A stretch of 64,000 nucleotides of DNA from positions 186,001 to 250,000 of the forward strand of contig JAHBVX010000002.1 of the NCBI GenBank assembly GCA_019637295.1, read 5' to 3'. The stretch is from Polyangiaceae bacterium (GTDB lineage Bacteria > Myxococcota_A > Polyangia > Polyangiales > Polyangiaceae). Below the pieces are notes generated by a model that saw nothing but the letters and a program-made list of their open reading frames with translations, made no database searches and had not been told where the DNA came from. Of the stretch, positions 5,401 through 23,965 are shown one piece after another (the stretch's first letter is position 1; every line of letters starts with the position of its first letter). The translations under genes and the position numbers were made by a program.

Positions 5401-6160
5401 TCAATTGCACGGGTCGACGGCCGGCGGGGGATCGGCGACCACGCCACCGAGCTGAACCGAGATGGCGTCGAACCCGATCCCGACGCTGATGGCGTCACAC
5501 TCTTTGCTGGGATCGCCGTTGCTGCCGTCGCTCATGATGTCGCTGGCGGCGCGGAATGCCGCCAGCGCGCCGTCGAGCGTGGGACTACCGGGGCAGAGCT
5601 GGCCATCCGAGAAAGCCCCGGCGACCTTCGCGAACGCGCTGACGAGGTCCACCGTACGGATGATGCCCGAGATGGTACCCATGCTCGCGGAGGCGCCGCT
5701 GCCGGCGCCCGCCAACAGCATGGTCACCGTCGCGTCGCGGATCGGGACCAGCATGGGGGCACCCGCCAATCCCAGGTCGAAATCGATGATGCCCACGGAG
5801 GTGACCACCCAGGTCCCGGCGGTCACGTAGCTGTTCTGGAATGCCACCTTGGGGCTGTCGGTGCTGCCGTTCACGCTCGAAGCAGTGACGGGCCACACGT
5901 CCGAACCACTCCAGCTGGGCGGTCCTCCGCGGTCCGCACCACGAAACAGCCCGCCCGAGAGCTGCACTTGATTGGGCTGGGTATCGAGCGCGTCGAGGCG
6001 AATCAGCAGAGTCTGCTCGCCCTTGTCGAGTGATTCGTTCAGCGAGGCGGTGGGCGAGGTCCCACGCCACCCGCGCCGCCGCTGCCCACCGCTCCGCCGC
6101 TGCCCCCCGCTCCGATGCCACCGGTCGACGAGGCGGCTCCCCTTGCCCATGACACCTACC
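5401..6160 (-). pseudogene. 5'-truncated, frameshifted exported protein with Gly-rich linker
   Basis: From about 6055 down to 5401 an open frame encodes a coherent beta-rich protein ending in DPPPAVDPCN. Just upstream, a different minus-strand frame (about 6155 to 6060) reads GGIGAGGSGGAVGSGGAGG, the spacer that follows the lipobox in many proteins of this genome. Joining the spacer to the body needs a one-base shift near 6058. The spacer frame meets a TAG around 6165, so no signal peptide remains. The gene therefore seems to have lost its 5' end and to carry a frameshift, with the toxin-antitoxin module starting immediately beside the break. An assembly error would explain the shift but not the missing signal peptide. 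Confidence 0.6.
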
Positions 6161-6168
6161 ATGGTAGG
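6155..6168. promoter_or_regulatory. Perfect 14-bp palindrome, probable antitoxin operator
   Basis: CCTACCATGGTAGG is self-complementary over all 14 bases and ends 8 bases before the antitoxin ATG at 6177. Type II antitoxins with a ribbon-helix-helix fold usually repress their own promoter through such sites. The assignment is inference from position and symmetry. Confidence 0.5.
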
Positions 6169-6176
6169 CTCGCGGT

Positions 6177-6404
6177 ATGACCGCAGCCAAGCGCAAGGTC
6201 TCCGTGTCACTGGACGCGGATCTGGTCGAGGAACTCGAGGCGGCGGACGTCGCGCTTTCGACGCAAGTCAACGACGCGGTCCGCGACGCGCTTGCGCGGC
6301 GGGGCCGCCAGCGCCTCCTCGGCGAGCTACTCGCCGAGCTCGACCGCGAGCACGGGCCCGTTCCGCAGAAGCTCGTCGCGAAGTACGAGTCGCTGCTCTC
6401 GTGA
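6177..6404 (+). CDS. Type II toxin-antitoxin system antitoxin, ribbon-helix-helix type
   Basis: The 75-residue product begins KRKVSVSLDADLVEELE, the beta-strand and helix of a ribbon-helix-helix DNA-binding domain of the VapB/CcdA kind, and continues with a charged helical C-terminal half of the sort that wraps the toxin. It overlaps the PIN-domain gene by 4 bp (GTGA), the usual arrangement for a VapBC operon. The protein should neutralise the toxin and repress the operon, probably through the palindrome just upstream. Both genes look intact, unlike the debris on either side. Confidence 0.8.
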   Translation: MTAAKRKVSVSLDADLVEELEAADVALSTQVNDAVRDALARRGRQRLLGELLAELDREHGPVPQKLVAKYESLLS

Positions 6405-12466: not shown

Positions 12467-13512
12467 TCACCTGCTCGCCACTCCGAACGGCAACTGCAGC
12501 TGTTCGGGCGGCGCTGCAGCGGCCGTGCGCGGGACGGGTGGCGCCCTTGGCCCGAGCCCGTGCTCCGAGAGCAAGCGCGTGATGGCGCTGCGGCTCGTCG
12601 CGACTTCTGCCCAGCGCATGGGCCCCGAGCAGCGGGGACAGCTCTCGAGGTCAGCCGCGAACACATGGGCGAGCAACCACGCCCATCGCTTTCGCTTCGC
12701 TGGCGCGTCGTCTGTCTCGCCGAGCAGCGCGAGCTGATCGCCGCGTGCAGGCGGGGGCTTGGTCGCGGCCACATCGGGCACGGGTTGCGGAACGACGAGG
12801 CGCCGGCGCGATGAGTGGCTCGACAGTACCCCGAAGTAGCGGAGCAAGTGCCAGCGAGGCGGTGGCACGGCGGCGACGAGGCGCGCAATGAGGTCGTCGG
12901 GCTCGAGGAGCAGCGCGCGCGTGCCGTCACGCCACACCTTCTTGAAGGAGAGCTCGAGCTTGCCGTCGGGCCGGCGCGTGAGGCGGTCCTGGGCGACCGG
13001 TGGGCGCGTGATGTACTTACAAAGACGCTCCACTCTTCTGCGGTCCCGGCCGTCCACGACCTGGGCGGCGTGGAGGTTGATGCCGCGCACCTCGGCGATG
13101 GGCTCGTCGGTCGCGTCGGCGGCGCGCGGGCGCGCGGGTGGGTCCAGCGACGCTACGAGGCGGAGCGGCGGCTTGCCGGCCCGGTCACCGCTCACCGCGA
13201 CGCCCTGCGCGGCGGCGGCGTAGCAGGCCGCCAGGCCGGGCTCGTCGAGGCAGACCTCGGGCGCGTCACCGTCGTCTAGCTCGGGGTCGAGGCTCCGGCC
13301 GTGCGCGCGCAGAATGCGCTCGACGCGAGCCGCGGTGCGCGCGGCAACCTCGGCTATGTCGGCGTGCGTGGGCGCGCGGAGCTCGCGAAACTCGAGCGGA
13401 GAGCGCGGGTCATCGCTTGCGTGCACGTAGACGCCGTCGAGCACGAGGGCGTGGAAATGCACATTGAGCCGCAGCGCACTGTCCGTCCTCTGCACGGCGA
13501 CTACGGCCCCAG
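12467..13512 (-). pseudogene. IS91-family (HUH) transposase, N-terminally truncated
   Basis: The frame encodes about 348 residues of an IS91-type rolling-circle transposase. LRLNVHFHALVLDGVYVH carries the His-x-His metal motif of HUH enzymes, RLCKYITRPPVA the catalytic-Tyr region, and ADLESCPRCSGPMRW the C-terminal zinc knuckle common in the family. The N-terminal zinc-ribbon and the YFH-type entry segment are missing: transposase similarity begins at 13512, and the frame upstream (to 13909) is antisense to other genes. The coding part is otherwise unbroken, but without the N-terminus transposition activity is unlikely. Confidence 0.78.
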
Positions 13513-14468: not shown

Positions 14469-15221
14469 CTACGGAAGTGGCTCTTCGCCGCCGCCGGGAA
14501 CTGCGCCGCGGAAGTCGTTGTCGCGTCGTCGTCCGAGGTCTCGGCACGGTGGCTCGGGCCATGCGTAGGGACCGGCATCGACTCGCATCACCGCTTCCAA
14601 GGGAGGTCGGCTGACGAGCCTCCTCGCGTACTCCCACTGCAAAGCCTGAAAGCGCTCGAGCTCCTCGGGCTCGGCGTGACCCGCCTCGATGCGTCGCATC
14701 TGCGCCCGCACATCGACCGGGTAGGTCTCGGGGCGGATCCTCACGCGGACCGTGGCGCCGGTCGACACTCGCTGCAGGACAAACTCGCTCTCGGTGAGCG
14801 CGGGGTCGATCAAGTGCGTACCGAAGCGAGCGCGCGCGCCGGTCAGGTACGCCGCGACGTCGCCGCCGCAGGCTGAGTTGTTGGAGGCGACTCGGAGATC
14901 GGTCCTGTCGATCGCGCCGTCGGGAAAGAGCGCGTCGAACGCGACGCGCAGCGAGACGGCTGCTTCGACGAGCCCTCCGCAGAAGTGTCCGTGAAAGCGG
15001 ATCAGATCCGCGAGGTCGATGTGCTTGGTCTCGCGCGCGTAGCGACCGTACTTGTTGACCGTGTCGCGTACCTCGAACACGGGCGCGTGCGGCGCGGTCG
15101 CCAGCCAGTCGGGGTAGTACGAGCCCGTCACATCCCGGGCTGGTCTCGGTGCACTCGCACAGCCGCCGGTCATCACCATGGTCGCGATGATGAGGCCCCC
15201 GAGGAGATGGCCGAGGTTCAC
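14469..15221 (-). CDS. FmdE-domain lipoprotein
   Basis: The 250-residue product starts at a GTG coupled by a 4-bp overlap to the CDF transporter gene. It has a signal peptide with Cys21 in a TGGC lipobox. Residues about 60-150 match the FmdE domain first seen in formylmethanofuran dehydrogenase subunit E: FHGHFCGGLVEAAV and NNSACGGDVAAY supply the conserved His and Cys ligands of its metal site. Stand-alone FmdE proteins bind zinc or molybdenum-type metals and are not proof of methanogenesis. Pairing with a metal exporter suggests extracytoplasmic metal binding or sensing. The final 20 residues are low-complexity. Confidence 0.7.
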   Translation of the reverse strand: MNLGHLLGGLIIATMVMTGGCASAPRPARDVTGSYYPDWLATAPHAPVFEVRDTVNKYGRYARETKHIDLADLIRFHGHFCGGLVEAAVSLRVAFDALFPDGAIDRTDLRVASNNSACGGDVAAYLTGARARFGTHLIDPALTESEFVLQRVSTGATVRVRIRPETYPVDVRAQMRRIEAGHAEPEELERFQALQWEYARRLVSRPPLEAVMRVDAGPYAWPEPPCRDLGRRRDNDFRGAVPGGGEEPLP

Positions 15222-16190: not shown

Positions 16191-17204
16191 GTGCGGTCCT
16201 GGCTACTGCCCCTATCGGCGATTGCGCTCGCGGCGCTGGCGCGGCCCGTCTACGCCCAGTGCACCTCGAACGCTTCGTCGTGCGTGACCTGCCACGAAAC
16301 GCAAGGTTCGCGTCCGGTCCTGCAGAGCGCGCAACCTTGGCACGTCGACCACGGCTTCGGTGACCTCTGTGCCTCCTGCCATGCGGGTGACCCCGCGGCC
16401 TCGGCCAAGGAGCTGGCGCACGTCGGATTGCGGCAGCCGCTCGCCGATCCCGCGCTCTCCTGCGCCGGATGCCACGCGGACGACGCGTCAGCGCGCGCGG
16501 AGCGCTACCTGGCAGTAGCGACCAGCACCGCAGCGGCACCTCCTTCGAGCCCTCCGGCGAGTCCGAGTGCGGCAGCACCGCTTCGGTCCTCGACAGCCGA
16601 CCGCATCCTCGCGTCCCTGGCCGCGCTCCTGACGATCGCCCTCTACTTCCTGGTGAGGCGCGAGCCGGCGACCGACCGGCGCTCACTCCTGGCGTGGCTG
16701 CGCGCCAAGACCTGGAGCCCGTACGCCGCGGGCGTGCTGCTCGGCCTCGTCGTCGCGTTCTCCGAGGTCATCTGTGGTCGACCGCTCGCCGCGTCAGGCG
16801 CCTTCGACAAGCTCGCCGCCTATCCCGGCCGCTGGCTCTTCCCGTCGAGCCAGTACTACGGGCACATCATGACGCCGGGGATCACCTGGCAGGTGTGGCT
16901 CATCGTTGGCGTGCTCGCCGGCTCGTTCGCGTCGAGCAAGCTCTCGAGTGAGTCGCGCTGGCGATGGCTGCCTGACACGCAGTGGCAGCCGCGCTTCGGC
17001 GCGAGCCGCAGGCTGCGACTCGCCATCGCGTTCTTCGGCGCGGTGCTGGTGCAGGTGGGTGCAGGCATCGCGGGCGGATGCACGAGCGGCCTTGCCATCT
17101 CCGGTGGCGCCGCGCTCGCGCCCGCAGCCTTCCTGTTCATGGCCGGCATGTTCGCCGGGGGTATTCCCGCTGCGTGGTTCTGGTACCGCGGGAGGGCCGA
17201 CTGA
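16191..17204 (+). CDS. Triheme cytochrome c fused to YeeE/YedE transporter domain
   Basis: From the GTG at 16191 the product has 337 residues. A signal peptide (to about Gln23) is followed by three c-type heme sites: CVTCH (31-35), CASCH (60-64) and CAGCH (91-95). An Ala/Pro/Ser linker leads to membrane spans from about residue 130. SPYAAGVLLGLVVAFSEVIC and GAGIAGGCTSGLAISGG identify a YeeE/YedE (sulfur transport) half with its conserved Cys. YeeE-type proteins import thiosulfate or related sulfur species. The heme domain would lie outside the cytoplasm and could pass electrons to or from the substrate. The next gene overlaps by one base and provides the second YeeE half. No in-frame ATG is better placed. 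Confidence 0.82.
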   Translation: MRSWLLPLSAIALAALARPVYAQCTSNASSCVTCHETQGSRPVLQSAQPWHVDHGFGDLCASCHAGDPAASAKELAHVGLRQPLADPALSCAGCHADDASARAERYLAVATSTAAAPPSSPPASPSAAAPLRSSTADRILASLAALLTIALYFLVRREPATDRRSLLAWLRAKTWSPYAAGVLLGLVVAFSEVICGRPLAASGAFDKLAAYPGRWLFPSSQYYGHIMTPGITWQVWLIVGVLAGSFASSKLSSESRWRWLPDTQWQPRFGASRRLRLAIAFFGAVLVQVGAGIAGGCTSGLAISGGAALAPAAFLFMAGMFAGGIPAAWFWYRGRAD

Positions 17205-17746
17205 TGCTCGACATCGTGAAAGCGTTGGTGCTTGGTCTCCTGTTCGGCTGGTCGCTCCACAAGGCAGGGCTCACGCACTACGCGCGCATCGTGAACGTGT
17301 ATCGCTTCCGCGACATGACGGTGATGCGCTTCATGCTCACCGCGCTCGTGGTCGGCGCCTTCGGGATCCAGGCGGGCATCGACCTCGGCTTCGCCGCCAG
17401 CGCGCCCATCCCGCCCACGTCGATGCTGGCCAACGTCGTGGGCGGCGTGGTCTTCGGCGTGGGGATGGCCACGGCCGGCTACTGTCCGGGCACCATCGTC
17501 GCGGAGGCCGGCGAGGGACGCCTCGACGCCTGGGTGGCGGGCCTCTCGGGGCTCCTCGTGGGCGCGATCGTGTTCGGCTTGCTTCAGCCGGTGATCATGC
17601 CGACGCTTGCGCGGGTGGGGGCTCTCGGTCGCGTGACGTTCGCGAGCCTCGCGGGTGCGAGCCCGTGGCTGGTGCTGCTCGTCTTTGCGCAGGTCGTCGT
17701 GCTCGTGCTGATGCTCATCGCTCGCGTGGGGAGGAAGACGACGTGA
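17204..17746 (+). CDS. YeeE/YedE family protein, second half
   Basis: The 180-residue membrane protein starts at an ATG that overlaps the preceding TGA by one base. GVGMATAGYCPGTIVAEAGE is the hallmark of the second YeeE repeat, with the conserved Cys that handles the sulfur substrate, and five to six hydrophobic segments are visible. Two-gene YeeE systems, each protein giving half of the pore, are common. Here the partner carries the hemes. The stop is overlapped by the start of the pyruvate oxidoreductase gene (GTGA), tying transport and enzyme expression together. Confidence 0.85.
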   Translation: MLDIVKALVLGLLFGWSLHKAGLTHYARIVNVYRFRDMTVMRFMLTALVVGAFGIQAGIDLGFAASAPIPPTSMLANVVGGVVFGVGMATAGYCPGTIVAEAGEGRLDAWVAGLSGLLVGAIVFGLLQPVIMPTLARVGALGRVTFASLAGASPWLVLLVFAQVVVLVLMLIARVGRKTT

Positions 17747-20700
17747 CGAACCCGGTCCGCTACCGAACGCTCGATGCCAACGAGGCCGTCGCCGACGTCG
17801 CCTATCGCCTGAGCGAGGTCATCGCCATCTACCCGATCACGCCCGCCTCGATCATGGGGGAGCACGCCGACGCGTGGTCGGCCGATCGCCGCGCGAACCT
17901 GTGGGGCACGGTCCCCGAGGTGGTGGAGATGCAGTCCGAGGGCGGCGCAGCCGGAGCCGTGCACGGGTCCCTGCAGGCGGGAGCGCTCACGACGACGTTC
18001 ACCGCGTCGCAGGGCCTGCTGCTCATGCTGCCGGACCTCTTCAAGCTCGCCGGCGAGCTGACGTCGTTCTGCATGCACGTCGCGGCTCGCACCGTGGCGA
18101 CGCACGCGCTCTCGATCTTCGGCGACCACTCCGATGTGATGGCCGCGCGCAGCACGGGCATGGCGCTGCTCGCGTCGGGCTCGGCGCAGGAGGCGCAAGA
18201 TCTCGCGGCCATCGGCCACGCCGTGACGCTGCGCGCGCGCGTGCCGGTGCTCCACTTCTTCGACGGCTTTCGCACCTCGCACGAGATCATGAAGGTCGTG
18301 CCCCTCGAGGACGACGCGCTGCGCGCGCTCGTGAACCCCGAGGCACTCGCCGCTCATCGCGCGCGCGCCCTCGATCCGGATCGCCCTGTCGTACGCGGCA
18401 CCTCCCAGAACCCCGACGCGTACTTCCAGTCCCGCGAGGCCGTCGAGCCCTTCTACGCGCGCTTCCCTCAGGTGCTCGACGAAACGATGGCGCGCTTCGC
18501 CGAGCTCACCGGGCGGCGCTACAGACCGTTCGACTACGTCGGGCACACGGAGGCCGAGCGGGTTGTCGTGCTGATGGGTTCGGGCGCCGAGTGTGCGCAC
18601 GAATTGGTCGAGCATCTCGTGTCGCGCGGCGAGAAGGTCGGTGTTCTCAAGGTGCGGCTTTTCCGGCCGTTCTCGACAGAGCATCTACTCGCGGCGCTGC
18701 CGGCGTCGGTTCGTTCGCTCGCGGTGCTCGACCGCACGAAAGAGCCCGGCTCGTCGGGTGAGCCGCTCTATCAGGAGCTCACCGCCGCGCTCGTGGAGGC
18801 GATCGCCCGAGGGGAGCGCGCCTCGTTGCCGCGCATCGTGAACGGGCGCTACGGGCTCGCCTCGAAGGACCTGACGCCGGCGATGCTGCGGGCGGTGTTC
18901 GAGGAGCTCGCGGTGGCAAGCCCGAAGCACCGCTTCACAGTCGGCATCCGCGACGACGTCTCCGGCTCGTCGCTGCCCTTCGACGCAACCTTCGACATTG
19001 AGCCGGATGATGTGTCCCGTGCGCTGTTCTTCGGCCTGGGCGCGGACGGAACCGTCTCGGCCAACAAGGCCACCATCAAGATCATCGGAGAGGAGGCGGC
19101 GCTCTTCGCGCAGGGACACTTCGAGTACGACTCGCGCAAGGCGGGCTCCACGACCATCTCGCACCTGCGCTTCGGCCCGAGGCCCATCCGTTCGACGTAC
19201 CGGATCGCGCGCGCGCAGTTCATCGCGATCCACGATCCCGAATTCCTCGAGCGGCGCGACGTGCTGGCGGCGGCCATGCCCGGCGCCACGGTGCTGCTCA
19301 ACACGTCGTTGCCGGCCGAGAAGGTGTGGGACGCGCTGCCGCGCGAAGTGCAGGTCCGGCTCGTCGAGCAGCGCTGCCGGCTGTTCGTCATCGATGGCTA
19401 CGGCGTCGCCGAGCGCGCCGGCCTCGGTCGGCGCATCAACACCGTGATGCAGATCTGCTTCTTCTCGCTCGCCAAGGTGCTGCCGCTCGACGAAGCGATG
19501 AAGCATGTCCGGCGCTCGATCGAGGAGACGTGGGGACGCCGCGGCCCCGAGGTCGTCGAGCGCAACGTGGCCGCGCTCGACGCGGCGCTGGGTGCGCTAC
19601 GCGAGCTCCCCGTGCCGAGCACCGCGACCGCGGCGCGGACGCGTCGTCCAGCGGTGCCGCCAGAGGCGCCGGACTTCGTGCAGCGCGTGACTCGCCTGCT
19701 CATCGAGGGACGAGGCGACGAGCTGCCAGTGAGCGCGTTTCCGCCAGACGGAACGTGGCCGAGCGGGACGAGCAAGTTCGAGAAGCGCGCGCTCGCGCTC
19801 GAGATCCCGATCTGGCAGCCCGACGTGTGCGTGCAATGCAACTTCTGCTCGATGGTCTGCCCGCACGCGGCCATCCAGACCAAGGTGTTCGACCCGGCGC
19901 AGCTCGCGCGCGCGCCCGCGAGCTTCCGGTCGATGCCCGAGGCGTTCGAGCCCGCGCTCGACGGACTCCAGTACGCGGTGCAGGTCGCGCCCGAGGACTG
20001 CACCGGCTGCGGCCTGTGCATCGAGGTGTGTCCCGCGAAGGATCGTTTGAAGCCGCGTCGCAAGGCGCTCGTGCCCGAGCCACTCGCTGACCACCGCGAG
20101 GCACAGCGCGAGGCCTTCGCATTCTTCCAGACGCTCGAATCGGCGACGATCGCCGCTGTGCCCATCGACAAGCGCACCGCCGCGTTCCGTCTCCCGTTGT
20201 TCGAGTTCTCTGGCGCCTGCGCCGGCTGCGGTGAGACCCCGTATCTGCGCCTGCTCACACAGCTCTTCGGCGACCATCTCATCATCGCGAACGCCACGGG
20301 GTGCTCGTCGATCTACGGCGGCAACCTGCCGACGACCCCGTACACGACCAACGCCGAGGGACGCGGTCCGGCATGGTCCAACTCGCTATTCGAGGACAAC
20401 GCCGAGTTCGGACTCGGCATGCGCCTCGCGGTCGACGTCCGCGCCGAGCACGCTCGAACGCTGCTCAAGGGCGTCGCCGCGAGGCTCCCCGCTGCGCTCG
20501 TTGACGCGCTCCTTTCGCCCGGGTCAGGCGAGACCTGGATCGCCCAGCAGCGGCGCCGCGTGAAGGAGCTCGACGCGCTGCTGTCGGGCGATGCATCACC
20601 AGAGGCCGTCGCGCTGCGCGATCGCTCCTCCGCGCTCGTGCCGCGCAGCGTGTGGATCGTCGGTGGCGACGGGTGGGCGTACGACATCGGCTACGGCGGG

Positions 20701-21312
20701 CTCGATCACGTCCTCGCGTCGCACAAGAACGTCAACGTCCTCGTGCTCGACACCGAGGTGTACTCGAACACCGGCGGTCAGCAGTCCAAGGCGACCCCGC
20801 TCGGTGCGTCCGCCAAGTTCGCGACCGCGGGCAAGTCGGTGCGCAAGAAAGACCTCGGTCTGCTGGCCATGAGCTACGGCCACGTCTACGTCGCCCAGGT
20901 CGCGATGCAGGCACGCAGCGCGCAGACGGTGGAGGCGCTGCTCGAAGCGGAACGGCATCCTGGCCCGTCGATCGTCATCGCCCATAGCCCGTGCATCGCG
21001 CACGGCTACGACCTCGTGAACGCTCCGCTGCAGCAGAAGCGAGCCATCGCGAGCGGCATGTGGCCGCTGTATCGCTTCGACCCCAAGCGGGTCGACCGCG
21101 GTGAGGCGCCGCTCGTCCTCGACTCGGGCGCAGAGACGCTCGACGTCAGCGCCTACATGGAGACCGAGGCCCGCTTCCGCATGGTCGAGTTGCGCGATCC
21201 CGCGCGCTACGCGCACCTGGTCGACGCGGCTCGGGACGCGGCGCGGCAGCGGCGCGCGCTCTACGAGCAGCTGGCGCAGATCCACCTGCCGAAGGAGAAG
21301 AGCCATGCCTGA
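17743..21312 (+). CDS. nifJ: Pyruvate:ferredoxin (flavodoxin) oxidoreductase
   Basis: At 1189 residues this matches the single-chain enzyme that converts pyruvate and CoA to acetyl-CoA, CO2 and reduced ferredoxin. Domains run in the usual order: pyrimidine-binding domain I (IAIYPITPASIMGEHAD near the start), domain II, gamma domain (FFGLGADGTVSANKATIKII), a two-cluster ferredoxin domain at about 690-780 (CVQCNFCSMVCPHAA and CTGCGLCIEVCPAKD), and the TPP domain (GACAGCGETPYLRLL, VGGDGWAYDIGYGG, EVYSNTGGQQSKATPLG) with the cysteines of the third cluster, including the HSPCIAHG loop. GTG start coupled to YeeE. The enzyme is oxygen-sensitive in most hosts, implying micro- or anaerobic use. The symbol nifJ reflects the family; no nitrogen-fixation genes are nearby. 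Confidence 0.95.
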   Translation: MTNPVRYRTLDANEAVADVAYRLSEVIAIYPITPASIMGEHADAWSADRRANLWGTVPEVVEMQSEGGAAGAVHGSLQAGALTTTFTASQGLLLMLPDLFKLAGELTSFCMHVAARTVATHALSIFGDHSDVMAARSTGMALLASGSAQEAQDLAAIGHAVTLRARVPVLHFFDGFRTSHEIMKVVPLEDDALRALVNPEALAAHRARALDPDRPVVRGTSQNPDAYFQSREAVEPFYARFPQVLDETMARFAELTGRRYRPFDYVGHTEAERVVVLMGSGAECAHELVEHLVSRGEKVGVLKVRLFRPFSTEHLLAALPASVRSLAVLDRTKEPGSSGEPLYQELTAALVEAIARGERASLPRIVNGRYGLASKDLTPAMLRAVFEELAVASPKHRFTVGIRDDVSGSSLPFDATFDIEPDDVSRALFFGLGADGTVSANKATIKIIGEEAALFAQGHFEYDSRKAGSTTISHLRFGPRPIRSTYRIARAQFIAIHDPEFLERRDVLAAAMPGATVLLNTSLPAEKVWDALPREVQVRLVEQRCRLFVIDGYGVAERAGLGRRINTVMQICFFSLAKVLPLDEAMKHVRRSIEETWGRRGPEVVERNVAALDAALGALRELPVPSTATAARTRRPAVPPEAPDFVQRVTRLLIEGRGDELPVSAFPPDGTWPSGTSKFEKRALALEIPIWQPDVCVQCNFCSMVCPHAAIQTKVFDPAQLARAPASFRSMPEAFEPALDGLQYAVQVAPEDCTGCGLCIEVCPAKDRLKPRRKALVPEPLADHREAQREAFAFFQTLESATIAAVPIDKRTAAFRLPLFEFSGACAGCGETPYLRLLTQLFGDHLIIANATGCSSIYGGNLPTTPYTTNAEGRGPAWSNSLFEDNAEFGLGMRLAVDVRAEHARTLLKGVAARLPAALVDALLSPGSGETWIAQQRRRVKELDALLSGDASPEAVALRDRSSALVPRSVWIVGGDGWAYDIGYGGLDHVLASHKNVNVLVLDTEVYSNTGGQQSKATPLGASAKFATAGKSVRKKDLGLLAMSYGHVYVAQVAMQARSAQTVEALLEAERHPGPSIVIAHSPCIAHGYDLVNAPLQQKRAIASGMWPLYRFDPKRVDRGEAPLVLDSGAETLDVSAYMETEARFRMVELRDPARYAHLVDAARDAARQRRALYEQLAQIHLPKEKSHA

Positions 21313-22324
21313 CCTGTCGACCACCTGGCTCGGGCTCTCGCTCAAGAGCCCTCTCGTCGTGGCGGCGAGCCCGCTCTCGCGCGAACCGGACGCGGTCGCG
21401 CGTGCCGTCGATGCCGGCGCCGGCGCCGTCGTGATGCACTCGCTCTTCGAGGAGCAGCTCACGCACGATCAGATGGCAGCGCACCGCTTCATCGATGCGA
21501 CCGTCGACCTCGACGCCGAGACCCAGGGCATCCGCCCGGGTGCGCGCGCCTTTACCGTGGGCGTCGAGCCTTACCTGCGCGAGCTCGAGCGCATCAAGCG
21601 ACGCGTCGATGTGCCGGTCCTCGCATCGCTCAACGGCACCACGCCCGGCGGGTGGACGCGTTACGCCAAGCGTCTCGAGGAGGCTGGCGCCAACGCGCTC
21701 GAGCTCAACCTGTACGAGGTGGGTGGGCCCGAAGGCGAGACGGGCGCCGCCGTCGAAGCGCGCCAACTCGCGGTCGTGCAAGCCGTCGTGCAAGCCGTGA
21801 AGTTGCCGGTCACCGTGAAGCTGACGCCGTTTTATGCGGCGCTCACGGCGTTCGTGCGTGACCTCGAAACGGCCGGGGCGCGCGGCGTGGCCGTGTTCAA
21901 CCGCTTCTACCAGCCGGACATCTTGCTCGACACGCTCGACGTCGACAGGCAGCTTGTCCCGTCCACGCCCGCCGAACTGCCGCTACGGCTGCACGCGCTC
22001 GCGCGTCTGTCGGCGACCACGACGCTCTCGCTCGCGTGCACGGGCGGTGTGCACTCGGGCCTGGACGCGGCGAAGGCCATCCTGAGCGGAGCACACGTCG
22101 TGCAGCTCGCCTCCGTCCTGCTCGAGCACGGGCCGCAGCATGTCGCCGTGCTGCAGGGCGAGCTCGCCGGCTGGCTCGACGGCAAGGGCTATAAGTCCAG
22201 CGCGGAGGCGCGCGGCGTCCTCGATCTGCGGTCGGCGCCCGATCCGCACGCGTGGGAGCGCCTCAACTACACACGCATGCTCGACGGCTGGCGAGCGCGA
22301 GACAGCTGGAGGAGAAAGTCATGA
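21305..22324 (+). CDS. Dihydroorotate dehydrogenase-like flavoprotein
   Basis: ATG at 21305 overlaps the oxidoreductase end by 8 bp. The 339-residue product is a class 1 DHODH-type FMN barrel: LSLKSPLVVAASPLSREPDA at the N-terminus, LEEAGANALELNLYEV, VTVKLTPF and a TGGVHSGLDAAKAI phosphate-binding loop. The active-site base loop and orotate contacts of true PyrD are not convincing, and the neighbourhood has no pyrimidine genes. DHODH-like proteins next to pyruvate:ferredoxin oxidoreductase recur in bacteria and probably exchange electrons with ferredoxin or NAD(P). The substrate is unknown. Confidence 0.8.
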   Translation: MPDLSTTWLGLSLKSPLVVAASPLSREPDAVARAVDAGAGAVVMHSLFEEQLTHDQMAAHRFIDATVDLDAETQGIRPGARAFTVGVEPYLRELERIKRRVDVPVLASLNGTTPGGWTRYAKRLEEAGANALELNLYEVGGPEGETGAAVEARQLAVVQAVVQAVKLPVTVKLTPFYAALTAFVRDLETAGARGVAVFNRFYQPDILLDTLDVDRQLVPSTPAELPLRLHALARLSATTTLSLACTGGVHSGLDAAKAILSGAHVVQLASVLLEHGPQHVAVLQGELAGWLDGKGYKSSAEARGVLDLRSAPDPHAWERLNYTRMLDGWRARDSWRRKS

Positions 22325-22959
22325 GCGACGACAAGAAGAAGAGCTGGCACGGCATCCCGCGTGAAGAGATCCCGTGGCTGCCCACCGTGGACGCTGAAGC
22401 CTGCATCGGCTGCCAGCTTTGCTACGTGACCTGCGGCCGAGGCGTCTACGAGATGCGCGAAGGAGTTGCTGTCGCGACGGCTCCGATGGAGTGCGCCGTC
22501 GGCTGCTCCACCTGCGGCAACATCTGTCCGACGAGCGCCATCAGCTTCCCGACTCTCGACGCGGTGTGGAAGCTCGAGCGTGAGAAGCAGATCTTCAAGA
22601 CGGTGAAGAAAGAGGCGCTCAAGAAGCACGAGCGCGAGGACACCCTCAAGGCACGCGAGGCCGCCCAGCGAGCGGTGGCGCAGGTGGCGACCCGAGCCAA
22701 GGTCGAGATCGCTGGTGAGTTCGGGGACAAGCGCTTCCTTGTGCGGCTCGAGGAGCTCATCGGGAACAAGCCCTTCGACGTCGTGAACCTGAAGCTCGAG
22801 GTGCCCACCGTGAAGGGAGCGAGGCAGAAGGCGCCCTCCTACATGAGCTTCGAGGTCACCTCGGAGCAGCAGGAAGACATCAAGCCGTTCCTCGAGACGG
22901 TCAAAGGTCTCGTCCACGATGTGGGCCTGGTCCTGGTGTCGGCCACGCCGGTGGGCTGA
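22321..22959 (+). CDS. Two-[4Fe-4S] ferredoxin with long C-terminal extension
   Basis: ATG at 22321 overlaps the previous stop by 4 bp. Cys28/31/34/38 form a standard CxxCxxCxxxC site. Cys58/62/65/69 form a second site with an unusual three-residue first gap. These would be the electron acceptors of the oxidoreductase encoded upstream. Beyond residue 75 there is a charged helix (EREKQIFKTVKKEALKKHER) and then about 75 residues of mixed alpha/beta sequence (FDVVNLKLEVPTVKGARQKA ... LVLVSATPVG) without a recognised family. The extension could be a docking domain for the DHODH-like protein or the transporter. Confidence 0.82.
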   Translation: MSDDKKKSWHGIPREEIPWLPTVDAEACIGCQLCYVTCGRGVYEMREGVAVATAPMECAVGCSTCGNICPTSAISFPTLDAVWKLEREKQIFKTVKKEALKKHEREDTLKAREAAQRAVAQVATRAKVEIAGEFGDKRFLVRLEELIGNKPFDVVNLKLEVPTVKGARQKAPSYMSFEVTSEQQEDIKPFLETVKGLVHDVGLVLVSATPVG

Positions 22960-22984: not shown

Positions 22985-23194
22985 ATGCGGAATCGTATAT
23001 CTACGATGAACGAACGGACCGCCGCTGACTGTTGCCCTAAGCCGAGCCTCGAGCCTGACCTCCGGCCGGTGGAGGGCAAGGAGGCGGACGAGGAACTGGC
23101 CGCGCTCGCCAAGGCGATCGGCCATCCGGCTCGCGTCCAATCCTGCGCATCCTGGTCCGCGAGACCGCCTGCGTCTGCGGGGACATCGTGGACG
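22985..23194 (+). pseudogene. ArsR/SmtB-type regulator, frameshifted and cut by IS91-like DNA
   Basis: The gene starts at ATG 22985 or 23006, 25 or 46 bases past the ferredoxin stop. The first frame gives EELAALAKAIGHPARVQ, the N-terminal helix of ArsR proteins. One base is then missing near 23140: the neighbouring frame continues as LRILVRETACVCGDIV, containing the Cys-x-Cys metal or thiol site of the recognition region. The gene ends at 23194, where an IS91-like transposase remnant replaces the rest of the DNA-binding domain. The regulator is therefore dead, and the operon upstream may have lost its control. Confidence 0.75.
22992..23007. promoter_or_regulatory. Perfect inverted repeat at the ArsR-type gene start
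   Basis: ATCGTA-TATC-TACGAT has perfect 6-bp arms and overlaps the inner ATG at 23006 of the broken regulator gene. AT-rich inverted repeats at their own start are the usual operators of ArsR/SmtB repressors, so this is probably an autoregulatory site. Confidence 0.5.
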
Positions 23195-23965
23195 AACCAC
23201 GCCCATCGCTTTCGCTTCGCTGGCGCGTCGTCTGTCTCGCCGAGCAGCGCGAGCTGATCGCCGCGTGCAGGCGGGGGCTTGGTCGCGGCCACATCGGGCA
23301 CGGGCTTTGGAACGACGAGGCGCCGGCGCGATGAGTGGCTCGACAGTACCCCAAAGTAGCGGAGCAAGTGCCAGCGAGGCGGTGGCACGGCGGCGACGAG
23401 GCGCGCAATGAGGTCGTCGGGCTCGAGGAGCAGCGCGCGCGCCGTCACGCCACACCTTCTTGAAGGAGAGCTCGAGCTTGCCGTCGGGCCGGCGCGTGAG
23501 GCGGTCCTGGGCGACTGGTGGGCGCGTGATGTACTTACAAAGACGCTCCACTCTTCGGCGGTCCCGGCCGTCCACGACCTGGGCGCGCGGGTGGGTCCAG
23601 CGACGCTACGAGGCGGAGCGGCGGCTTGCCGGCCCGGTCACCGCTCACCGCGACGCCCTGCGCGGCGGCGGCGTAGCACGCCGCCAGGCCGGGCTCGTCG
23701 AAGACGAGCTCGGGCGGCGTGTCCTCACCGAGCTCGGGGTCGAGGCTCCGGCCATGCGCGCGTAGGATGCGCTCGACGCGGGCCGCGGTGCGCGCGGCAA
23801 CCTCGGCTATGTCGGCGTGCGTCGGCGCGCGGAGCTCGCGAAACTCGAGCGGAGAGCGCGGGTCATCGCTTGCGTGCACGTAGACGCCGTCGAGCACGAG
23901 GGCGTGGAAATGCACATTGAGCCGCAGCGCACTGTCCGTCCTCTGCACGGCGACTACGGCCCCAG
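23195..23965 (-). pseudogene. IS91-like transposase remnant, copy 2
   Basis: This 771-base block is near-identical to 12675-13512 of copy 1. Relative to it there is a 66-base in-frame deletion around 23585, a 2-base deletion near 23441 that shifts the frame, and about one extra base near 23715. The HUH motif (LRLNVHFHALVLDGVY) is preserved on the minus strand. The left end is cut inside the C-terminal part, with the 40-bp repeat missing; the right end stops at the same base as copy 1. Confidence 0.82.

Follow-up and report, generated by a model that had tools for sequence, protein, structure and literature searches.

Introduction

Can a YeeE-type sulfur channel carry its own hemes, and if so, what would they do there? 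This question is raised by a gene in the window, i.e., the whole 64,000-nucleotide stretch of a Polyangiaceae contig (JAHBVX010000002.1) analyzed here. In a first-pass annotation, made from the letters of the DNA, the product of this gene was read as a triheme cytochrome c domain joined to a YeeE/YedE membrane domain, with the hemes on an outer part of the chain. The handling of sulfane sulfur at the bacterial inner membrane and its tie to respiration are poorly understood, and no report of a heme-YeeE fusion or of a triheme-YeeE gene pair was found in open-access PMC full text.

Results and Discussion

Architecture of the fusion gene

Translation from the GTG start gave a product of 337 amino acids. 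The three CXXCH motifs and the GGCTSG motif, as annotated, were confirmed on one chain. The features of the gene and of the second YeeE gene are as follows.

16191..17204, + strand: fusion gene, signal peptide - triheme domain - linker - membrane helix - YeeE C-terminal half (translation, Pfam, alignment)
16191..16256, + strand: likely signal peptide, residues 1-22, ending ...YA before QC (by eye and alignment, with no predictor behind the call)
16260..16262, + strand: Cys24, extra conserved cysteine just past the signal peptide, outside any CXXCH (alignment)
16281..16295, + strand: heme site 1, CVTCH, residues 31-35
16368..16382, + strand: heme site 2, CASCH, residues 60-64
16461..16475, + strand: heme site 3, CAGCH, residues 91-95
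16596..16661, + strand: membrane helix, residues 136-157, tethering the heme domain to the YeeE half (hydropathy; 135-156 in a low-confidence model)
16713..17189, + strand: YeeE C-terminal half, residues 175-333 (Pfam, alignment)
17204..17746, + strand: YeeE N-terminal half (PF04143, 70.1 bits, profile positions 10-151; DUF6691, 28.6 bits vs. 27)

The signal-peptide-like N-terminus ends in ...VYAQC, and a Pro/Ala/Ser-rich linker lies between the heme sites and the hydrophobic helix. The annotated YeeE/YedE domain was borne out by a match to PF04143 (Sulf_transp) scoring 70.0 bits (cut-off 27). Residues 130-325 aligned with positions 124-309 of the 310-position profile, and the fusion therefore holds the C-terminal half of the family. 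GGCTSG comprises residues 295-300, and its cysteine, Cys297, is encoded at 17079-17081. The stop codon of the fusion overlaps the ATG of the gene at 17204-17746.

The whole architecture was kept in four relatives at 60-74% identity and in a fifth at 38%, which argues that the reading frame is real. The local GC content of 0.65-0.72 leaves long chance frames (the stop-to-stop frame here spans 513 amino acids), but an artefact of frame choice or assembly is practically out of the question, as the four full-length relatives stem from independent assemblies and the fifth from another phylum. Conservation of the GTG start, which the annotation had put up for checking, held in part: at the chosen starts, GTG was found in the fused relatives L026, L027, and L029, and ATG in L028 and L037.

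With a signal peptide ahead and the hydrophobic helix 136-157 behind, the hemes likely lie on the outer (periplasmic) side; export of the heme domain we infer from the signal-peptide-like start. The same arrangement was found in two phyla, in agreement with the outer heme-bearing domain of the annotation. At the level of sequence, we regard the parts, their order, their likely sidedness, and the joint conservation of the triheme-YeeE pair as established. An AlphaFold2 model of the fusion (20-row alignment) reached a pLDDT of 60.8 and a pTM of 0.41, the heme part being mostly at about 50 or below. A Foldseek search with this poor model, which is a basis for no conclusion, gave no match at E 0.001 or better.

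The triheme domain

Three CXXCH motifs behind a signal-peptide-like start, kept in relatives, qualify the domain as a c-type cytochrome with predicted heme attachment. Three loci above the PF01578 cytochrome c assembly cut-off were found in the window genome. None of the curated Pfam cut-offs was passed by the heme part; the best match was PF14522 Cytochrome_C7 (17.8 bits vs. 24.8), and Cytochrom_c3_2 (14.9 vs. 25) and Paired_CXXCH_1 (15.6 vs. 20.6) were below cut-off as well. As the PDB matches of the heme profile were weak (best E 0.0089, octaheme nitrite reductase), no family is named for the domain.

Cys24 was present in 22/22 collected rows, which had been gathered from 23 loci by a regular expression that required this residue; L080, which the expression passed over, has it too, as GQC (by eye). 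Furthermore, the three heme sites, W50, H51, H54, D58, and H77 were invariant in the 22 rows. The third heme site takes the form CX4CH in L031 and L080. The three conserved histidines outside the CXXCH motifs could be far-side heme ligands, which would free Cys24 for sulfur chemistry. Alternatively, Cys24 could itself be a heme ligand, by analogy with TsdA and SoxA, for which small multiheme domains with a cysteine-ligated heme have been described. DsrJ is a triheme sulfur cytochrome with cysteine ligation. The domain resembles TsdA, SoxA, and DsrJ in its small size, its several heme sites, and its additional conserved cysteine and differs from them in that no sequence match exceeded the cut-offs.

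Seven weaker triheme relatives were looked at, and none had Cys24. Four of these were without YeeE in the stretch, and three were found beside a trio of heme part and both YeeE halves. Because copies without Cys24 also sit beside trios, its absence marks a paralogue, not a missing YeeE. In L091-L094, weak matches from Chloroflexota, a triheme part with a C-terminal helix (by eye) was seen; a counterpart of Cys24 and, within the stretch, YeeE were both absent.

An additional, diverged triheme gene, likewise lacking Cys24, was observed upstream of the trio at L085:7916-8500, L086:6979-7518, and L089:9423-9953 (minus strand).

The two YeeE halves and their cysteines

The YeeE domain is split, with the C-half on 16191-17204 and the N-half on 17204-17746, and the unit requires both genes. 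In profile alignments, Cys297 of the fusion coincided with TsuA Cys293, the first functional cysteine, and Cys94 of the N-half (17483-17485) with TsuA Cys91, the second. According to a section of PMC11073785, Cys293, Cys91, and Cys22 of TsuA are lined up across the membrane, Cys22 adjoining the cytoplasmic partner YeeD. This third, cytoplasmic site is occupied by Thr24 in the window N-half, and a cysteine was found there in none of 21 N-halves. As the counterparts of Cys293 and Cys91 are kept and that of Cys22 is gone, the relay has retained its outer part, on the heme side, and lost its inner part.

With the NCBIfam TsuA model NF041049 (cut-off 645), the fusion and the N-half scored 23.5 and 33.3 bits, and with NF052577 (cut-off 400) 17.7 and 48.7 bits. 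Owing to these scores and to the Cys22 site, the pair was not filed as a TsuA thiosulfate transporter. No TusA/YeeD gene was present among the five window neighbors scanned, which, together with the missing Cys22 counterpart in 21/21 N-halves, counts against a simple reading as uptake, the process to which the annotation had tied a possible redox step, and suggests that uptake may not occur.

The N-half profile matched PDB 6leo at E 9.6e-13. For a model of the N-half (pLDDT 69.8, pTM 0.54), the best Foldseek match was 6lep at E 1.5. In VIA-align, four TsuA entries ranked at the top with Z scores of 6.4-7.4, possibly just a common arrangement according to the tool; the comparison with TsuA residues 1-185 gave a middling Z of 7.4 over 165 residues (rmsd 3.8). 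As such scores may reflect a mere common arrangement, the likeness of the N-half to TsuA rests on the sequence match.

Compared with the TsuA/YeeE thiosulfate transporter (PDB 6leo, 8k1r), two of the functional cysteines and the N-half profile match are thus shared, whereas the protein is split and heme-bearing here, with Thr at the Cys22 site and without TusA/YeeD in the scanned neighbors. PmpA and PmpB are similarly encoded by two half-genes with one conserved cysteine each, equivalent to TsuA Cys293 and Cys91, in the part of PMC11582611 devoted to them, where PmpB is described with the Cys91 counterpart alone. Unlike in PmpA/PmpB, the C-half is preceded here, on the same chain, by a signal peptide, the triheme part, and one more membrane helix. 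Judging by a single alignment, in which the Pfam match begins at residue 130 (profile position 124), this tether helix may fill the place of the central helix missing from PmpAB. We classify the pair as a split YeeE of the PmpAB type that bears hemes, a form for which the search of open-access PMC full text gave no earlier report.

Conservation and linkage of the pair

A scan of the genome contig collection with the fusion protein, which finds close relatives only, returned 12 loci. Five were fused likewise (L026, L027, L028, and L029 from Myxococcota, L037 from Chloroflexota). In six, the triheme gene immediately preceded that of the YeeE C-half: L031 (Myxococcota), L033-L036 (Chloroflexota), and L032, whose contig coordinates are those of G051, from the window's order. 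The contig of L030 begins inside the gene and leaves its fusion state undecided. Counting the window, 6/13 loci were fused, 6/13 adjacent, and 1/13 undecided. The separate triheme genes of the split loci end in a C-terminal hydrophobic stretch of their own. The annotation had considered that homologues might place the heme part on a separate gene; half of the 12 loci do so, and the separate gene is the immediate neighbor, which argues for a functional link.

A heme profile, derived from loci that the fusion protein had retrieved, was searched against 377 Myxococcota and 400 Chloroflexota genomes. Matches down to the threshold of E 1e-6 came from 11 of the Myxococcota genomes, six of the 11 being strong (E 1.4e-24 or better), and from 15 of the Chloroflexota genomes, with 10 strong loci in nine genomes (E 3.1e-21 or better). 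The weak loci (E about 1e-12 to 1e-6) comprised five from Myxococcota, all multiheme proteins with 4 to 11 CXXCH, and 11 from Chloroflexota, five of which were inspected for their context (L091-L094 and the one upstream of the trio in L085). In 14 of the 16 strong loci, the triheme part was either joined to a YeeE C-half (three loci, one of them L081, described below) or encoded beside one (11 split loci); without the five loci used in the profile, the count was 9/11. The other two strong triheme loci were without YeeE in the stretch (L084:8327-8917 and L088:4262-7138), so the cytochrome can occur in the absence of the channel.

As a control, YeeE C-halves of Myxococcota outside the heme clade were inspected in loci of 2-4 kb. 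A frame with three CXXCH was found in 0/12 of these loci, and a frame with two in 4/12. Similarly, 0/17 Chloroflexota N-half loci of another kind had a frame with two or more CXXCH. The triheme-YeeE unit is rare but stays together.

On the minus strand of L081 (G137), at about 5703-6404, a fused relative was observed whose frame is broken inside the YeeE half. No N-half was found on its contig, and L081 stands outside the 21 N-halves and the tree.

A tree of 51 YeeE C-halves was made with a cleaned C-half profile. The heme-linked C-halves formed one group of 22 rows with a support of 88/63, which is not strong; two of these rows, L007 and L009, lie at contig ends and are undecided. The group was set off by a branch of 1.29 with a support of 100/99. 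Fused rows were found on two branches, a Myxococcota group (100/98) and L037 within Chloroflexota, and therefore at least two changes took place. Fusion and splitting of the same neighbors is a classical sign that the triheme domain and YeeE work together. One YeeE clade, found in two phyla (Myxococcota and Chloroflexota), thus has the triheme domain as a conserved partner on its outer side.

A second C-half profile match in L036 was rejected as spurious; the profile that gave it contained heme-protein tails.

Genomic context in the window and in Myxococcota

The neighboring genes in the window are the following.

17743..21312, + strand: pyruvate:ferredoxin/flavodoxin oxidoreductase (NifJ type), its start overlapping the N-half stop
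21305..22324, + strand: dihydroorotate dehydrogenase-like flavoprotein, overlapping
22321..22959, + strand: 4Fe-4S ferredoxin-like protein, overlapping
14469..15221, - strand: FmdE-domain protein with a lipoprotein-like start (by eye), adjoining a CDF-type cation exporter

The genes at 17743-22959 overlap end-to-start with the YeeE N-half gene and form one apparent operon with it. For the three downstream genes, the CDF transporter, and the FmdE protein, no relative was found in the loci of the 23 relatives (tblastn, E 1e-5). As these neighbors are not conserved, the conserved unit is the triheme-YeeE pair.

Two direct copies of a Y2_Tnp (PF04986) transposase gene were observed at 12663-13427 and 23183-23880 of the window, about 10.5 kb apart and 93, 97, and 98% identical over three stretches. 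They bracket the triheme-YeeE operon and the CDF and FmdE genes. The block between them may have been moved in; the base composition, which is even, gave no sign of foreign origin.

In the other Myxococcota loci, the pair was accompanied by an FAD/Rieske oxidoreductase (L026), a PHB regulator (L027), a hybrid kinase (L028), a PEGA protein (L029), a peroxiredoxin (L030), an AcrB-type pump (L031), and an epimerase (L080). No shared neighbor was seen among the Myxococcota loci scanned, so that the context gives no support in the window and in this phylum.

At L032:4288-6561, a protoglobin-histidine kinase gene overlaps that of the N-half and precedes a response regulator gene; together they may form a heme-YeeE signaling set.

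Genomic context in Chloroflexota

Behind the trio, a molybdenum enzyme with 61-67% identity to that of L033 was encoded in 10 of the 12 Chloroflexota loci (L033, L035, L036, L082, L083, L085, L086, L087, L089, and L090; L086 is cut by the contig end). The L033 enzyme scored best with NCBIfam PhsA, at 624.4 bits below the cut-off of 694, and its best PDB match was 2vpw, 'thiosulfate reductase' (E 4e-141). No relative of it was found in L034, L037, or the nine Myxococcota loci (0/9) within the stretches examined, and no Psr/Phs-type molybdenum enzyme gene lies beside the pair in the window. In the window genome, the best match to the L033 enzyme had 31% identity (E 5.7e-41).

The molybdenum enzyme gene is followed by genes for Fe-S, NrfD- or HmcC-type, ExtP-like cytochrome b, ExtM-like multiheme, and Rieske proteins, the completeness of the set varying among loci. 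In Candidatus Thermonerobacter, a PF04143 gene pair lies downstream of psrABC in an account within PMC6338057. YeeE-type genes thus stand by psrABC there much as in the present Chloroflexota loci, and a heme partner goes unmentioned in that account (PMC6338057).

A second heme-YeeE set was noticed at L035:26-4234, comprising a six-CXXCH cytochrome b561-domain protein, a YeeE C-half, and a fusion of N-half and rhodanese.

A candidate selenocysteine in relatives

In 8/21 N-halves, all from Chloroflexota, an in-frame TGA was found exactly where the second channel cysteine is otherwise encoded.

L033:9735, L035:8841, L036:9748, L082:9676, L083:9862, + strand: TGA at the N-half cysteine, candidate selenocysteine
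L087:8259, L089:7295, L090:7076, - strand: TGA at the N-half cysteine, candidate selenocysteine

The coding pattern PGTC[AV]AG runs on past the TGA in these eight N-halves. The window N-half has TGT at that codon and no TGA. When the N-half profile was applied to the same 400 Chloroflexota genomes, six of eight strong matches had one TGA and two had none; these six cases belong to the eight above, and the count therefore adds a control but no further cases. The control consisted of 17 weaker N-half matches of another kind, in which a stop was found in 0/17.

SelB and tRNA-Sec were over the cut-off in 19/21 genomes, namely 7/8 TGA genomes, 11/12 Cys genomes (the window's own included), and G802. 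In the eighth TGA genome, G409, a short SelB piece was found on a small contig, and no tRNA-Sec exceeded the cut-off. The selenocysteine machinery permits reading through the TGA and does not single this reading out. Furthermore, every one of the eight loci has other called genes that end in TGA. A SECIS-type hairpin could be folded at one place after the TGA with 87.5% of cells paired, which 185/500 shuffles reached. Between 1.8% and 63.8% of synonymous shuffles attained the folding energies past the TGA, which were equally low in some Cys genes. Rfam SECIS models gave no match in the TGA relatives. All eight TGA loci carry the molybdenum enzyme, and L085 and L086 have the molybdenum enzyme with Cys.

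A predicted selenocysteine in a PF04143 protein is listed in an excerpt of PMC13188914 for the selenoprotein YeeE/YedE WP_012471001.1 (motif GUxSG), and the selenoprotein YeeE/YedE family also appears in a portion of PMC9312934. That motif fits the C-half GGCTSG cysteine, whereas the TGA described here is at the N-half GYCPGT cysteine and occurs in relatives only. The TGA at the second cysteine points to redox or nucleophilic chemistry there, if it is indeed decoded.

Possible function and alternatives

Redox sulfur chemistry at the outer face would be the best reading of the triheme-YeeE pair. We tentatively favor, at somewhat less than an even chance, a split YeeE channel with a tethered periplasmic triheme cytochrome c that exchanges electrons with sulfane sulfur on the outer channel cysteines. 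The two genes would together form the channel, the C-half chain bearing the membrane-anchored cytochrome on its periplasmic side. Sulfane sulfur (thiosulfate, polysulfide, or persulfide) would be held on Cys297 and its partner Cys94, the latter being replaced by a putative selenocysteine in relatives. The hemes would swap electrons with the held sulfur; its oxidation or reduction would take place at the outer face, and it would then be handed on or set free. The electron partners in Chloroflexota would be the Psr/Phs-like molybdenum complex together with the adjoining cytochrome b and multiheme proteins; in the window organism, they would be periplasmic carriers. A heme-coupled chalcogen group-translocator, which we consider rather doubtful, would have the outer Cys297 and Cys/Sec94 bind sulfane sulfur and the tethered triheme part oxidize or reduce it, with the tether helix as the missing central helix.

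It is unlikely that the triheme protein is an electron relay between periplasmic partners, for instance the molybdenum complex and the cytochrome b or multiheme proteins, and is merely anchored on YeeE, the two sharing one pathway without step-by-step coupling. Such a relay would fit L088, a molybdenum cluster with the triheme gene directly before the PhsA-like gene and without YeeE, as well as L084, where the triheme gene occurs without YeeE and without the molybdenum enzyme. It would also fit the 11 of 12 Chloroflexota trio loci that have the hemes on their own chain. However, the nine Myxococcota loci, L034, and L037 are without such a molybdenum enzyme in the stretch and yet keep the triheme-YeeE link, and the occurrence of fusion on two branches also speaks against mere anchoring.

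We see a low probability that the unit is a SoxT1B-like sensor of outside sulfur or redox state, whose hemes would report oxidant or sulfur status. SoxT1B is described as a signal-transducing module in one part of PMC11582611. The globin-coupled histidine kinase of L032 favors sensing, and a PAS/hybrid kinase gene, encoded on the opposite strand, follows the pair in L028. In addition, an ArsR-type regulator is encoded just upstream of the triheme gene in 10/10 trio loci with the molybdenum enzyme, the ArsR domain having been scanned in L033 and L082 and the rest counted as relatives; ArsR-type sulfane-sulfur repressors have been reported in a Hyphomicrobium with SoxT. Against a sensor, a same-strand overlapping kinase was found in one Myxococcota locus, the other scanned neighbors being unrelated, and three hemes together with a respiratory cluster suggest flux.

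More doubtful still is another chalcogen (selenite, tellurite, or selenide) as the substrate, the unit taking part in its reduction or uptake. YedE is a predicted selenium-related transporter in a passage of PMC9312934, and the 19/21 genomes with SelB and tRNA-Sec are in keeping with selenium use. Proteins of the L082 cluster, with relatives in most loci of the molybdenum type, match ExtP (210.9 of 290) and ExtM (149 of 800) of the Geobacter selenite/tellurite cluster featured in a portion of PMC5877670. However, the molybdenum enzyme of the same clusters best matches PhsA, and the ExtP, ExtM, and PhsA matches are all below the curated cut-offs.

Conclusions

For a membrane process as little understood as sulfane sulfur handling, a YeeE clade with a near-constant triheme partner, sometimes on one chain, offers a direct connection of a sulfur channel with electron transfer that can be put to the test. 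The candidate selenocysteine form marks a channel residue that may do chemistry. If the group-translocator were true, the pair would transport sulfur at the membrane and have a respiratory path for electrons built into it, and a selenocysteine form would occur in Chloroflexota.
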